Under the pieces are notes generated by a model. That model ran no database searches. It had not been told where the DNA came from and saw nothing but the letters and a program-made list of their open reading frames with translations. Of a stretch of 64,000 nt of DNA, positions 45,647 through 51,962 are shown one piece after another. Made by a program: the position numbers and the translations under genes. Each line of letters opens with the position of its first letter. The first letter of the stretch is position 1. The DNA is from Fragilaria crotonensis (taxonomy: Eukaryota > Bacillariophyta > Fragilariophyceae > Fragilariales > Fragilariaceae): positions 124,001 through 188,000 of the forward strand of contig JAKSYS010000019.1 in the NCBI GenBank assembly GCA_022925895.1, given 5' to 3'.

Positions 45647-46369
45647 CTACTCGTCAAAGACTGGCATTGCCCAACATCCTGGCTCGGCTGAGGCGGGAAG
45701 CCATGGAATGGGATAATGGGTACCACCAACGGCGAATTGTGTTCCAGAGCCAATCTTGTCACTGTGTGCGACAATGTGCTCGGATAGGGCAACAGCGACT
45801 GACGATTTTATCAGGCCATAGCATCCAGTTTTTCGGTGCAGACCCGTTCCATTTCCTAGCAGTTGATGATACAGATGACCCGTTCGCGGGGATATCGCCA
45901 AACAACTCGGATCAAATCTTTGTCTCAAAGATGCAGCGAAGTATAGCTGCCAAGTATCCGGTGTGTCTCCGCCCATGGAATGAAAGACAATCGGCGAATC
46001 GGCTGGTCGCACGAAGTTTAGCTCCACGCCACAACGAGACACATAAGGATAGTCTACACGAACGCACGTAGGAAGAAGTTCAAGATCTTGCTCTGTGGAC
46101 TCCTTGATATTGGAGATGAAAAAATCTAAAAAGGCTGGACTCTTCAGCGATGTGGCAACATTTTTTGGCTGAGTTTCCTCCAAGAAAATGCGCCCTTGAA
46201 GATCAATGTGATAAAAGTACTTCTTGGGTTTTCCGACGCCATGTTGTTCATAAAACGAGTTTGACTTCACGATTGAAGATTGCCATTGTTCTATGTACTC
46301 CTTGCTACCGCTGCATAGGAGTCGCTGACTCGTTCGTGCTTGCCATGGTCGAAACCGACCAATAATCAT
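45647..46369 (-). CDS. UPF0598 (C8orf82-like) protein, probably mitochondrial
   Basis: The 240-aa protein from ATG 46369 begins MIIGRFRPWQARTSQRLLCSG, a plausible mitochondrial presequence. It then shows the UPF0598 pattern: KKYFYHIDLQGRIFLEE, FLDFFISNIK, YPYVSRCGVELNFVRPADSPIVF, HLYH, GLIKSSVAVALSEHI and a C-terminal GTHYPIPWL. The function of UPF0598 is unknown in any organism I can name. The frame stays open upstream of this ATG up to the retrotransposon LTR at 46434. Beyond the element an in-frame ATG (51962) followed by CTG AAA GTC would have continued directly into it before insertion. So the element interrupts either the 5' UTR or the first codons of this gene. Confidence 0.85.
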   Translation of the reverse strand: MIIGRFRPWQARTSQRLLCSGSKEYIEQWQSSIVKSNSFYEQHGVGKPKKYFYHIDLQGRIFLEETQPKNVATSLKSPAFLDFFISNIKESTEQDLELLPTCVRVDYPYVSRCGVELNFVRPADSPIVFHSMGGDTPDTWQLYFAASLRQRFDPSCLAISPRTGHLYHQLLGNGTGLHRKTGCYGLIKSSVAVALSEHIVAHSDKIGSGTQFAVGGTHYPIPWLPASAEPGCWAMPVFDE

Positions 46370-46428
46370 GGTCAAATCGTCGGCTTGAGCCCGATGTGCT
46401 GGACCGATAAAGGTGTGAACAGTGTGAT

Positions 46429-46433
46429 AGTGG
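46429..46433. repeat. Target-site duplication AGTGG (left copy)
   Basis: AGTGG directly precedes the left LTR and recurs at 51947-51951 directly after the right LTR, the 5-bp duplication expected of a Ty1/copia integrase. Confidence 0.95.
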
Positions 46434-46672
46434 TGTTGAAATTGCACCCCGATGGTCTACTTACGATAGCCTTCTTATATCCCTTGAGGATATGTCAGGG
46501 GTCAAATAGGTTGTAGATGTACAGTGTTCGATGTAATCGTTCCTAAGAGTTTTAGTAAAGTATGAGATCTTATCTCTGAATGCATTTCATGTAAATTTTC
46601 GATCTTGGGTAGTCATAGACTCAATGACTCTAATCGTGAAAATTCATCTTGAATCTCCTAAATATTCCAACA
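46434..46672 (-). repeat. 3' LTR of the copia element (239 bp)
   Basis: Terminal TG..CA. It contains the 15-mer GTTTTAGTAAAGTAT (46549-46563, plus strand) that is the exact reverse complement of the internal sequence beside the other LTR. Confidence 0.95.
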
Positions 46673-46694
46673 CACTCCTGCTGGACGATGATGC

Positions 46695-49600
46695 TCATGT
46701 AGCCCGCATTATACTGGCGCGAAAGTGTACAAACTTCGCTCCGACCAATGGCTTCGTCATGTAGTCGGCAATCATGGCATCGGTAGGACAGTATTCGATT
46801 GTGACTTCGTTGCGCTGGATCAGATCAGTGATATAGAAGTACTTGATATGGAAGTGCCTTGTTCGCTTCCCGGAACTTGATTTTCCATTCTCCTCGAGTT
46901 TCATCGCACTGGTATTGTCTCGATATATGATGGTCGTTTTCACGTTGTAGCCTTGCGCTACGATAAACAACTTCGACCAAAGAATCTTGGATATTACATC
47001 ATCCAAACCGACGAGTTCCGCCTCTGTGGAACTCCGAGACATAACCTTCTGCTTAGTGGACACCGAACTGAGTACACCTTTTCCAAGCGTCATAGTCGCT
47101 CCCGTATGGCTTTTATAGTCCCTGTGGACTGCAAACGAAGCGTCCACATACCATTTAATTGTTTGCGAGTCATCCGCCTCCAGAGTAGTGACGTCGTTCT
47201 GAGTTGCTTTCAAAAACAACATCAGCTTGACAAGCTTCGCCCAATCTTGTTCGGTGGGTTCTGACGTGCGAGTCGACAGAAAAGCAATTCCAGGTTGTAC
47301 GTCCTGGCGTGCACGTTTGCACAAAAACATTCCTTTCATAACAAAAGTATGAAAAATACTTGCTCGCTCTTCGTCCAACCTCTTCGACTTGGGGTCCACG
47401 ATAAACAACTTGTTCGTCCACGGGAAAGCTCCAGTACCACTCAGCGTTAACGGAAAATCCTCCACCATCGTTTTTACGTACTTCGTCATATCCAACTTCA
47501 ATACTCCCGGACTAGAGTAGTCGAGTACCATAGCCAGATAGTCATGCCGATGACCACGCACGGCCTTGACCTCTCCGATTTTATCGGAGGCATACTTCTT
47601 CTTGAGCCATTCCAAAAACTCGTCATTCACCTTCGGGTCAACGTGACTGGATTTTAGGTCGTCGACGTGCCAGGTGACAGTATGTTGCTTACCGTTCACA
47701 GTTCGGTTTGCAACACATGGATCATAAGGATTTACAACGAATCCAATAGATTCAATATCCTTGCGGAACTTCTTGTAGTAAAGTAGGGATGATTGGAGCA
47801 TGCCGTACAAGGCTTTCTCCATCGCGACATATAAGACCTTGTTGCTTCCTTCGTACACGACGTATGGAGCGTAAGTTTCATAACTTAGCTCAAGCAACAT
47901 ATCAACCAAGGGTCCTCGAATCTTCATGATGATGCGTTCGCCGATCTCTTTCTTATCAATGTCCGTTTGCACGAATGCATTCGGAATGTCAGCGGTCATA
48001 ATGTCCCGACGTTGCTTCGCATCGATCACTGCCGTGATAACAATGGATTCAGTCATTGCCGTCGGACTGGCTGCCTCATCTCGATCCATGTACTCTCTCT
48101 GAGTACTACCGTTGGCACAGGTTCGCCCTTTAATCGTACCGTCCCGCTTTTCCACGAGAAAAATCAAACTCTCCATCGCTCGTTGCCTCTCTTGTTCTGT
48201 CAATTCGGCAACCTTGATTGGCTTGAACACCACTCGCTCGTGCAACTGCTTCATTTCCTTGTACGCAGCCTCTCTGCCTTTGTTTCCAAACTTCTTGAGT
48301 CCTCTCATGAGACTGTAGGATTGTACGAAGTGGTATGCAGTTTTGCCCTGCGGATTAAAAAGCATTTCCGCCATGTGGCACATTGTTACAGCGATTACCC
48401 GTGCAGTCTCGATACTGTACTGTTCACACACGTTGTGTGCTTGGGCGTGTAGGTGATGTTGTGCTAATGTCAACTTTGTCGGCGGTCTCGATGTTCTTCC
48501 CGACCTCGTCACTCTCACGTTTTCCGTTTCCTCTGTTGGATCAGTGCGCGGATTCGCTTCTTCGGCTTCCGACTCTGGATCGTCTGTGCTTTCGCTATCC
48601 GGGTGTTCTTCTTCTTCGACGACAGTCTCTGCTTCCTCAGCCGCTTGAACTTGGTCACCTTGGATAACTTCTGCCGCCACTCCTGCATTGTTGGCATGTG
48701 GGTCTTGACCGTCATCGTCATCATCGTCATCTGACATTGCATCATCCTCGTAGTCGAGCAGATCGTCGTCGTCACCGTCGTCATAATCGTACTGACCTTC
48801 AGGTAGTTGATCATTTGGGTCGTCGTCTTGATCTTCTTCATGCTCAAAGTTTTCGTCGTCGAGGTCGTCGTCGAACTGTTCTTCGTCATAATCCACTCCT
48901 GGAATCCACGCACTGTCATAAAAGATCTGACCTGTACGGTTTTCGATCTTTAGACCGGCGGGCATATCCTCGGCCTGTGCAAGCGCGTGAACTTGACTGA
49001 CAATGGCTGGAGTAATCGGAACTGACGTGATGTTTCGCCGTGTGATGATGGAATTGGTAGGTAGATGAAGTAGTTCATGTCCACCTTGAAGATTATCTTT
49101 ATACCGGAGATAGATGCAGTCTAAACTGCGCGGCGCATTCGTGCTCGAATGTTTGGGCTCTTCGTGAGCTTGGACGTACGTCCCTAGTGCGTATCGGCAA
49201 TGTCGCGAATAGTCGAGGTTCCTTTGATGTAACATCATCCTCGGACTGTAGAACTTAGAAACTCCGTTCTTGGACGGAAAGAAATTCAGCTTCTTAGCTG
49301 ATTCTGATACCAACATTTTGACCATCGTCTTGGTCAGCTGTCTATACGGCAACCGATGATAGGTAGCCCGTACGCGTTCTTTAATAACGCGATTGTTTCG
49401 CTCTGCTTCCGGCACATGCTCTTGAGCGTTGGCAAAATTCATGACGACCTCAAATTCGTCGGCAAGCGGTTCGATAAGTGGACGGAACTCGTTATCGCAC
49501 CGAATGGTTGTCACCTGAAAACCGCCAGCGTTGTATACGCGAAAAACTTGTCCAAGTACTTCGCGATAGATTTCAGCCGTTTGATGCTTGACATATTGCG

Positions 49601-51623
49601 CCGTCCTGTATTGTATGTTCCTCGAGACGGTCGTTAAAAACGAAAGTCCGTTAACCTTCATAGCGTCCATGCAAAGGGTCACGTTACGTTGCGTAGCAAT
49701 TAACTCCTTCGGAATCTCAATGTAATCACTAACGACAGGTGCAGGCTTGCGACGAGTCGTCTTGCCCTTGATCCGACCAATGTCGGTCCCGAAAATTTGT
49801 TCGGCCATAACGATGTCTTCAGTTGTAACTGGATTGCCTATGATAGTATTCATGCGCAACATCGCCTTGAAATCGGTAATCGATGGCGTGCCCAAAGCGT
49901 GATATAGATCACGAGCTCTCTTCGCTCTTTCGAATTGACGCTGTGTGAAAAAAGTCTTGTTTTCCTCAACTGTGTTTAAAAGCTGTACCTGCTTCTTGAT
50001 CGGAGGCTTAAAGACATATAAGTTGTTACCGAGTCTGGTGAATCGGACGGCCTTGTCATCGCTGAGATGGACAATAAACGCATCTTCCTTTCCGGAGTCA
50101 TATGTAATGCGGTAGCGGTCTGCCATCTCGGCATAGCTGATGATGTTAGTGATTGCTGATTCGTTGAACCACACTTCTCCCCATTGAGGGAGATCGGCCT
50201 TGTGAGTTGTCACCAAGACCCCTCCATTCGTCGACAAATGCATGTCGCCGTCGTTTGACCTCCGAATATTTTGGACCAGCTCTTTATTACAAAAGACGCT
50301 AACGCTTGATTGGTTGTCCAATAATATCCAGTCTCGCATTTCGTGCGCATCGAATTGCTGGAACTGCAACTCAATGTGTGCTCCGGCCCATCCTGTTACA
50401 CTCGAGCTCGAACTTGACGGCGGCGTGTTGTTGATTGATGGCGGAGTCACCGAGCTTGCGTCTGACGATGCTGTCGTCTGTGCATGGCTCTGGGCCTTAT
50501 TAATCGCCCATTCCTCTTTGGGTTTTCCTTTATCGCGACACGATGGCGACTTGTGACCTGCTTTTCCGCAGCAGTAGCACTTCCCTTCGAGTTGTGCGAA
50601 CGACAGATTGACTTCGTCTTCGTCCTTGTCGTCATCCTTCTTGTCCTTACCCTTGTTGCCGTCTGTGGAGTTGTTCTTCTTTCCACTGGATTTGTTCGGC
50701 ATGGTGTCAAACTTGTGGTTGCTTAGCACGTTGTTCGACTCTGTTATACTTTTCGGATACTGGTCGTTTCCGAGCGATTGTTGCGTGTTCAAACCAGTTA
50801 GGATGGAACCGTACTTAGCCTTATCGGCGTTGTCCAGATACAAGAACGCAAGGAACTGATTGAATGCTTGTTCGTGCATTTTCTCTCGCTTGTCATCATC
50901 GGCTTCCACGTAACCTTCCATGGCCTCCACAATTTTTGTCAATATAATTGGACCTCCGATATGTGACTTGAGCACATCTCTCGCCACGCGGAATCTCTTT
51001 GTGAAGTCCTGCAAACTCTCGCCTTCCTTTTGCTTTGTGCTCAGTAGCGTTCTCAACGCATCCAACACAATCGACATTGAATACCTGTTCTCTTGGTAGT
51101 TCAACGCGTGTTCCTTAATCGCCTTCAACAACAGGATCGGATTGTTCTTAATCTTGTCGTAATCGGAGCGAGCCTCAATTTTGTTCTTCATGGCTTTCGC
51201 GCAACGCTCCCAAAGCAGTGCATACGCTTTGGTAAGGTTATTTTCATAAACCTGCATGCGCTTTCGATAAGTATCGTAATCCGACTTGAACTCGATTTCA
51301 TACTGCTTGTTCTCAATCGCGCGAATCTCTTCGTCGGTCTCTCCGCTCACTTGCATAGATGGTTTCCAAACCGTTGTATCAATGGCCTCTAGCTTCTCAA
51401 GCGCGGATCCAATGTCATTTCCGTAGTCGTACAGTTTCTTGATATGATTGATCAGAAATTCTGTCGTCGTTTCGTAGTCAGACGCTTGCTTCGATGATCC
51501 GAGATAATAATTATAATCGGTCACATACTGTTTCTTACTAGCAGCTGGTGCGTTGGAATTACTTCCTTTCGTCTGGGACTTGCTGCCCTTGCCTTTCTTC
51601 GCAAAACGCCCTTTACTACTCAT
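46695..51623 (-). CDS. Copia Gag-Pol polyprotein, intact
   Basis: 1642 aa from ATG 51623 (MSSKGRFAKKGKG). Domain order is that of Ty1/copia. Gag has a CCHC knuckle CYCCGKAGHKSPSC. The protease has LLDNQSSVSVF, with DNQS where DTG/DSG is usual. Integrase has acidic residues in LCMDAMKVNG, TIRCDNEF and PEAERNNRVIKER, but the N-terminal HHCC zinc finger is degenerate (LYHALGTPS, no CxxC). A long acidic linker follows (DDDLLDYEDDAMSDDDDDDD). Reverse transcriptase has TADIPNAFVQ and HVDDLK instead of YVDD. RNase H has WYVDASFAVH, STEAELVGLDD and YRDNTSAM. The modified protease and integrase motifs agree with what I recall of diatom CoDi elements. No frameshift or stop separates Gag from Pol. Confidence 0.96.
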   Translation of the reverse strand: MSSKGRFAKKGKGSKSQTKGSNSNAPAASKKQYVTDYNYYLGSSKQASDYETTTEFLINHIKKLYDYGNDIGSALEKLEAIDTTVWKPSMQVSGETDEEIRAIENKQYEIEFKSDYDTYRKRMQVYENNLTKAYALLWERCAKAMKNKIEARSDYDKIKNNPILLLKAIKEHALNYQENRYSMSIVLDALRTLLSTKQKEGESLQDFTKRFRVARDVLKSHIGGPIILTKIVEAMEGYVEADDDKREKMHEQAFNQFLAFLYLDNADKAKYGSILTGLNTQQSLGNDQYPKSITESNNVLSNHKFDTMPNKSSGKKNNSTDGNKGKDKKDDDKDEDEVNLSFAQLEGKCYCCGKAGHKSPSCRDKGKPKEEWAINKAQSHAQTTASSDASSVTPPSINNTPPSSSSSSVTGWAGAHIELQFQQFDAHEMRDWILLDNQSSVSVFCNKELVQNIRRSNDGDMHLSTNGGVLVTTHKADLPQWGEVWFNESAITNIISYAEMADRYRITYDSGKEDAFIVHLSDDKAVRFTRLGNNLYVFKPPIKKQVQLLNTVEENKTFFTQRQFERAKRARDLYHALGTPSITDFKAMLRMNTIIGNPVTTEDIVMAEQIFGTDIGRIKGKTTRRKPAPVVSDYIEIPKELIATQRNVTLCMDAMKVNGLSFLTTVSRNIQYRTAQYVKHQTAEIYREVLGQVFRVYNAGGFQVTTIRCDNEFRPLIEPLADEFEVVMNFANAQEHVPEAERNNRVIKERVRATYHRLPYRQLTKTMVKMLVSESAKKLNFFPSKNGVSKFYSPRMMLHQRNLDYSRHCRYALGTYVQAHEEPKHSSTNAPRSLDCIYLRYKDNLQGGHELLHLPTNSIITRRNITSVPITPAIVSQVHALAQAEDMPAGLKIENRTGQIFYDSAWIPGVDYDEEQFDDDLDDENFEHEEDQDDDPNDQLPEGQYDYDDGDDDDLLDYEDDAMSDDDDDDDGQDPHANNAGVAAEVIQGDQVQAAEEAETVVEEEEHPDSESTDDPESEAEEANPRTDPTEETENVRVTRSGRTSRPPTKLTLAQHHLHAQAHNVCEQYSIETARVIAVTMCHMAEMLFNPQGKTAYHFVQSYSLMRGLKKFGNKGREAAYKEMKQLHERVVFKPIKVAELTEQERQRAMESLIFLVEKRDGTIKGRTCANGSTQREYMDRDEAASPTAMTESIVITAVIDAKQRRDIMTADIPNAFVQTDIDKKEIGERIIMKIRGPLVDMLLELSYETYAPYVVYEGSNKVLYVAMEKALYGMLQSSLLYYKKFRKDIESIGFVVNPYDPCVANRTVNGKQHTVTWHVDDLKSSHVDPKVNDEFLEWLKKKYASDKIGEVKAVRGHRHDYLAMVLDYSSPGVLKLDMTKYVKTMVEDFPLTLSGTGAFPWTNKLFIVDPKSKRLDEERASIFHTFVMKGMFLCKRARQDVQPGIAFLSTRTSEPTEQDWAKLVKLMLFLKATQNDVTTLEADDSQTIKWYVDASFAVHRDYKSHTGATMTLGKGVLSSVSTKQKVMSRSSTEAELVGLDDVISKILWSKLFIVAQGYNVKTTIIYRDNTSAMKLEENGKSSSGKRTRHFHIKYFYITDLIQRNEVTIEYCPTDAMIADYMTKPLVGAKFVHFRASIMRAT

Positions 51624-51693
51624 GTTATCGCCCTGTGGGTCTTCTTCAGACACTCTGCGGTCCGGTACTCTTCACGGTGCTATCCTTGCCCGG

Positions 51694-51708
51694 ATACTTT
51701 ACTAAAAC
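51694..51708 (-). promoter_or_regulatory. Candidate self-priming primer-binding site
   Basis: On the coding (minus) strand the 15 bases after the 5' LTR read GTTTTAGTAAAGTAT. They do not begin with the TGG expected for pairing to a tRNA CCA end. They are exactly complementary to ATACTTTACTAAAAC inside the LTR (51837 down to 51823). The primer 3' end would sit precisely at the LTR edge. Confidence 0.7.
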
Positions 51709-51946
51709 TGTTGAAATTGCACCCCGAGGTCTACTTACGATAGCCTTCTTATATCCCTTGAGGATATGTCAGGGGTCAAATAGGTTGTAGATGTACAGTG
51801 TTCGATGTAATCGTTCCTAAGAGTTTTAGTAAAGTATGAGATCTTATCTCTGAATGCATTTCATGTAAATTTTCGATCTTGGGTAGTCATAGACTCAATG
51901 ACTCTAATCGTGAAAATTCATCTTGAATCTCCTAAATATTCCAACA
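51709..51946 (-). repeat. 5' LTR of the copia element (238 bp)
   Basis: Same as the 3' LTR except for one missing T near 51726. It is flanked by AGTGG at 51947-51951. The candidate primer complement lies at 51823-51837. Confidence 0.95.
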
Positions 51947-51962
51947 AGTGGACTTTCAGCAT

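Follow-up and report, generated by a model that had tools for sequence, protein, structure and literature searches.

A Ty1/copia retrotransposon of the diatom Fragilaria crotonensis carries, directly after its 5′ long terminal repeat (LTR), a putative primer binding site (PBS) that is the exact complement of a segment inside its own LTR, and in its relatives the two sites differ from element to element while continuing to pair. The joint change of PBS and LTR segment across dozens of elements strongly supports the view that the match is in use. From these comparisons, Tf1-type self-priming in a Ty1/copia lineage is the best explanation, and we consider it very likely to be correct.

The element and its primer binding site

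Within the window (the whole stretch of 64,000 nucleotides that was analyzed), the element occupies the reverse strand (Table 1). Its two LTRs are identical in 238 of 239 aligned columns, with one 1-nt gap as the sole difference, and have the termini TGTTG...CAACA. Considering the copia-type reverse transcriptase (RT), the TG...CA LTRs, and the 5-bp target duplication, the element belongs to Ty1/copia (Pseudoviridae). Its RT is RVT_2 (PF07727; 46.1 bits versus a cutoff of 31.6; 6.2e-12), which is the copia type and not the Ty3/gypsy RT of the Tf1/sushi lineage. RVT_2 was the only domain that Pfam recognized in the Gag-Pol frame, with zero domains in the N-terminal 708 amino acids; by eye, the frame contains a zinc knuckle, an integrase-like region (a DDE-like stretch before the RT, seen by eye only), and then RT and RNase H. 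Among the 120 of 1,848 protein matches listed, those named by organism came from the diatoms Nitzschia inconspicua (69%), Attheya (64%), and Epithemia clementina (62%). A DUF4505 gene (45650 to 46447, reverse strand; 8.2e-30) was also observed, and because its open frame extends 14 bp into the 3′ LTR, insertion of the copia element may have taken place at, or close to, the 5′ end of this gene.

Table 1. Features of the copia element and its putative self-priming sites, in window coordinates
Feature	Position	Strand	Basis or remark
Whole Ty1/copia element	46434..51946	-	LTR pair, RVT_2 match, target duplication
5′ LTR	51709..51946	-	238 bp
3′ LTR	46434..46672	-	239 bp
Target-site duplication AGTGG (5 bp)	46429..46433; second copy 51947..51951	.
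Single long ORF, Gag-Pol	46695..51653	-	ORF list and Pfam
Polypurine-like tract CAGCAGGAGTG, adjoining the 3′ LTR	46673..46683	-	Same or similar tract in relatives
Primer binding site (putative)	51694..51708	-	First 14 nt (51708 to 51695) covary with the LTR across families
Putative self-primer segment, 5′ LTR	51823..51836	-	Predicted transcript positions +2 to +15
Putative self-primer segment, copy in 3′ LTR	46549..46562	-
Putative transcription start, A of conserved CA	51837..51837	-	An A precedes the segment in 33/36 elements

On the sense strand, the 15-mer read from 51708 to 51694 (GTTTTAGTAAAGTAT), whose first base directly follows the 5′ LTR, is the exact reverse complement of positions 51837 to 51823 in that LTR, in agreement with the original prediction, and the second complement noted for the other LTR (46549 to 46563) is present as well. 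In this element the match grows to 16 nt when the last LTR base is included. The 15-mer occurred at 15 exact places in the 62.1-Mb assembly, versus 0 for a reversed-pattern control, and by order and spacing these places represent five elements with three places each (LTR, PBS, and LTR), an RT match lying beside each. Two of these copies of the window family (C218 and C361) are known from the 15-mer places only and stand outside the table of relatives described below.

Pairing of the PBS and the LTR segment in related elements

An RT search returned 89 matches, and the 5′ part was fetched at 37 places, with the LTR edge located in 31 of the 37 pieces. The unbiased set comprised the window element and 19 relatives (RT identity to the window element, 40 to 86%) whose edge was fixed by aligning both LTRs, with AACA at, or no more than 15 nt from, the end of the LTR-pair alignment; for L052 and L056, whose 5′ LTR was partly aligned, the segment was taken from the 3′ LTR. 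All 20 elements carried an exact complement of 13 to 15 nt at offset 0, derived from one homologous LTR site, which supports the predicted Tf1-type geometry of a complement abutting the LTR edge. Another 11 elements were located via the complement itself, and the longest self-complement within reach in each of those pieces (20 to 420 nt upstream) was 15 nt, i.e., the edge match plus the last LTR base. Five further elements bring the table to 36 rows: C560 was recognized by the similarity of its PBS, C14 and C55 by a match to the 15-mer, and L113 and L115 by self-complementarity. For 16 of these rows the complement, PBS similarity, or the 15-mer itself had served to find the element, so that they are not independent tests. 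The six pieces with no recognizable edge (L046, L058, L059, L060, L065, and L069) were uninformative, and probing them with gag sequences of six located elements gave no match; the 3′ LTRs for four of these six elements (L027, L035, L036, and L037) carry the usual segment. Unrelated inverted repeats of 17 nt and 12 nt were seen in L060 and L065, respectively, neither of them following an AACA edge, which shows that self-complementarity of such length also arises at other places.

After five duplicate rows were dropped, 31 distinct rows were compared position by position. PBS positions 1 to 13 paired in all 31 rows (30 of 31 at position 8) and position 14 paired in 29, and for positions 15 to 22 pairing was found in 5 to 8 rows. 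The 15th paired base of the window element is one of 6 matches among the 31 rows and is thus at chance level. The predicted 15-nt primer, an exact complement in this element, was therefore replaced by a conserved primer of 14 nt, starting one base after a conserved CA. On the other side of the junction, the A that ends the LTR and immediately precedes the PBS has a T as its partner in 30 of 31 rows, and for the next base into the LTR a pair is seen in 1 of 31. Of the 504 cells in the 36-row table, 501 are paired: 34 elements match their own segment at 14 of 14 positions, one at 13 (C685, one miss), and one at only 12 (C560, two misses, one of them G-U). The A before the segment mostly belongs to CTCA or ATCA. 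In the three exceptions (C685, L113, and L115) the frame is shifted, the segment being 13 nt in C685 and longer in L113 and L115, and the segment again starts with the A of a CTCA or directly behind it.

The original prediction had proposed to look for covariation of the two 15-mers in related elements, and the outcome was strongly positive. An RT tree was available for the 24 of 36 rows with RT sequence (good support for 14 of its 21 inner branches, with the placement of L115 uncertain). Across the 14 columns, this tree requires 51 changes in the PBS, the same number in the LTR segment, and again 51 when both are counted jointly; 335 of the 336 tree cells were Watson-Crick pairs and none was G-U, the lone exception being the 13-nt element. 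When the PBS of one group was compared with the segment of another, 1 to 10 of 14 positions paired at the same site, and the best of about 86 offsets in a region of about 100 nt reached at most 11 of 14, a value seen in 9 of 824 comparisons. A chance match is ruled out by this difference between own-pair and cross-group pairing.

Paired changes alone do not name a function, and a helix selected for another RNA role (packaging, dimerization, or hiding the cap), with priming as a separate matter, would also fit a stable predicted structure. In the window RNA starting at 51837, the helix is present in both the minimum free energy and centroid structures, with an additional stem inside the loop (z of -2.37; equally good folding in 5 of 200 shuffles), and the mean pairing probability of the helix is 0.85 to 1.0 in all 24 of the 36 elements that were folded. 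However, the pairing begins exactly at the LTR edge and stops sharply at position 14. Moreover, a helix maintained by selection alone should pass via G-U pairs as intermediates, so their near-absence (0 of 336 tree cells and 1 of 504 table cells) speaks against selection alone, and we regard this other-role explanation as quite improbable. Pairing that is strictly Watson-Crick and ends abruptly instead suggests that the PBS is recopied from its primer in every cycle. The PBS is known as a record of its primer in the case of retroviral tRNA primers.

A scan of bacterial genome records yielded five contaminant contigs with copia relatives (L113, L114, L115, L116, and L117), and two scans of viral contigs for relatives found none. 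L115 and L116 (35% RT identity) have a complement of 16 nt at offset 0, or 17 nt with the last base of the LTR end CAGCCA, an edge that is backed by the LTR repeat in L116; the latter is a near-repeat of L115 and was left out of the counts. L113 (55% RT identity) has a 16-nt complement, with a single LTR copy visible, so that its LTR edge is not fixed. No pair of at least 12 nt was found in L114, which stops within the LTR, or in L117. The occurrence of eukaryote-type copia elements on contigs filed under bacterial metagenome-assembled genomes suggests that public bacterial genome records contain contamination.

Candidate primers and the proposed priming route

In most copia elements a tRNA or half-tRNA primes, and under such a scheme the LTR match would be incidental. 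None of the 36 PBSs begins with TGG, extending to the relatives what had been noted for the window element, although a TGG is not required for half-tRNA priming, which the available text of PMC6317226 describes in several plant copia groups. Rfam indicated 63 tRNA places, including organelle contigs, of which 20 pieces were fetched with 22 genes, a partial set in which the initiator Met gene and others were not recognized. Against these 22 genes, the best tRNA complement for 11 PBSs tested was 8 to 10 of 14 positions, which is the level of shuffled PBSs compared with the same tRNAs (means of 8.2 to 8.8 and maxima of 10 to 11). Furthermore, the 15 exact 15-mer places are all explained by the five elements, and 21 different PBS 14-mers occur among the 36 elements, nearly all matching their own LTR. 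A tRNA primer thus found no support in this partial set, and we consider it extremely unlikely.

Elements of other copia clades in the genome served as controls. Eleven 5′ pieces were taken at RVT_2 matches that the list of 89 RT matches does not include, and many of these pieces probably miss the edge. Compared with the 22 tRNAs, they gave one 11-nt match to tRNA-Asn (L101), not following a CA; at the thresholds used, these pieces showed no further match to a tRNA or half-tRNA and no self match. The 3′ side was fetched for three controls, and an LTR pair was recognized in C733 only, where near-edge self-complementarity did not go beyond 5 nt and no LTR complement was found.

Self-priming would proceed as follows. 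A CA of the kind that precedes the segment resembles a polymerase II initiator. Since the segment follows this initiator-like CA, we infer that transcription starts at its A (51837) and that the primer is probably formed by transcript positions +2 to +15. This part of the RNA would fold back onto the PBS beside the LTR, and the RNase H of the element would presumably cleave after +15, leaving a 3′ end that abuts the LTR edge, from which synthesis would extend across the 114 nt of U5 and R. Later, during plus-strand synthesis, the primer would be copied into a new PBS, so that the PBS would track the LTR segment. Alternatively, the primer might act in trans, supplied by a short LTR-derived RNA or by the 5′ end of the other RNA copy in the particle rather than by the template itself, and cis and trans are indistinguishable from sequence. 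However, in each of the 24 folded elements the predicted cis helix shows a mean pairing probability of 0.85 or more, and the T after the segment pairs with the last LTR base in the 30 of 31 rows mentioned above, as a fold-back would favor. We consider priming in trans fairly unlikely and favor primer and template being parts of one molecule.

Relation to known systems and implications

The closest mechanistic parallel is Tf1 of fission yeast (Ty3/gypsy, Tf1/sushi group), whose PBS, according to the text available from PMC7175516, is complementary to the first 11 bases of the RNA, which is cut between bases 11 and 12. Like Tf1, the diatom elements have a PBS that abuts the LTR and is complementary to an LTR-encoded sequence at the inferred 5′ end of the RNA; unlike Tf1, they are Ty1/copia elements with a segment of 14 nt (13 to 16 nt in relatives) and the first base apparently skipped. 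The original prediction regarded self-priming as undescribed for Ty1/copia, but it has already been predicted for the plant TAR lineage (Houba and Osr-1), with LTR complementarity of at least 10 bp located 0 to 5 bp after the edge (PMC6317226). The TAR lineage, which we compared by description rather than by sequence, is thus likewise Ty1/copia with predicted self-priming, but it belongs to plants, and the accessible text of that paper presents no covariation analysis for it.

Among other diatom Ty1/copia elements are the CoDi elements of Phaeodactylum and Thalassiosira (PMC2806351); in the main text of that paper, "tRNA" appears 0 times and "PBS" appears once, meaning buffer. Diatoms and self-priming are both mentioned, separately, in PMC3601003. 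Among the listed results of searches in open-licence literature, no report of self-priming in diatoms was found by title or abstract start. As far as our searches show, self-priming has been worked out in one Ty3/gypsy branch, whereas for copia it has only been predicted, in some plants.

The fungal GalEa copia elements (Conserved Hairpin Site) are also Ty1/copia without a tRNA-type PBS; unlike the window element, they are described in the available portion of PMC5445492 as having a palindrome at the PBS and no LTR complement, and self-priming appears there only as a contrast for fungal elements. A site recalling the GalEa hairpin was observed in another copia clade of F. crotonensis, in which the LTR end AACA is immediately followed, at the PBS, by a perfect 12-nt palindrome in six of eight elements examined (L103/L110 [C733:119553], L118, L119, L121, L122, and L123); the palindrome is absent from the pieces fetched for L120 and L124. 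A genome-wide search with AACACGTTTNNAAACG found 53 places (2 for the reversed control), with AT in the middle in 40 and TA in 13; none of the other 14 possible middles occurs, hence all 53 are palindromes. The LTR adjacency refers to the 6 elements examined among these 53 places. Cleavage behind such a palindrome would place the new 3′ end against the LTR on a sister RNA.

Returning to the self-priming lineage, we lean toward the view that throughout this diatom copia lineage, including relatives with 35% RT identity, each cycle rewrites the PBS from the 5′ end of the RNA, minus its capped first base, and that the PBS is not independently selected. If this is true, the genome would document the start site in the PBS, which would lag one generation behind changes in the LTR, and PBS-LTR pairing would provide a sequence-only prediction of transcript starts. 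The natural variants found here would allow testing of the idea that the PBS is copied from its primer. A deep copia lineage with 51 paired changes makes a much stronger case for independent self-priming in Ty1/copia.
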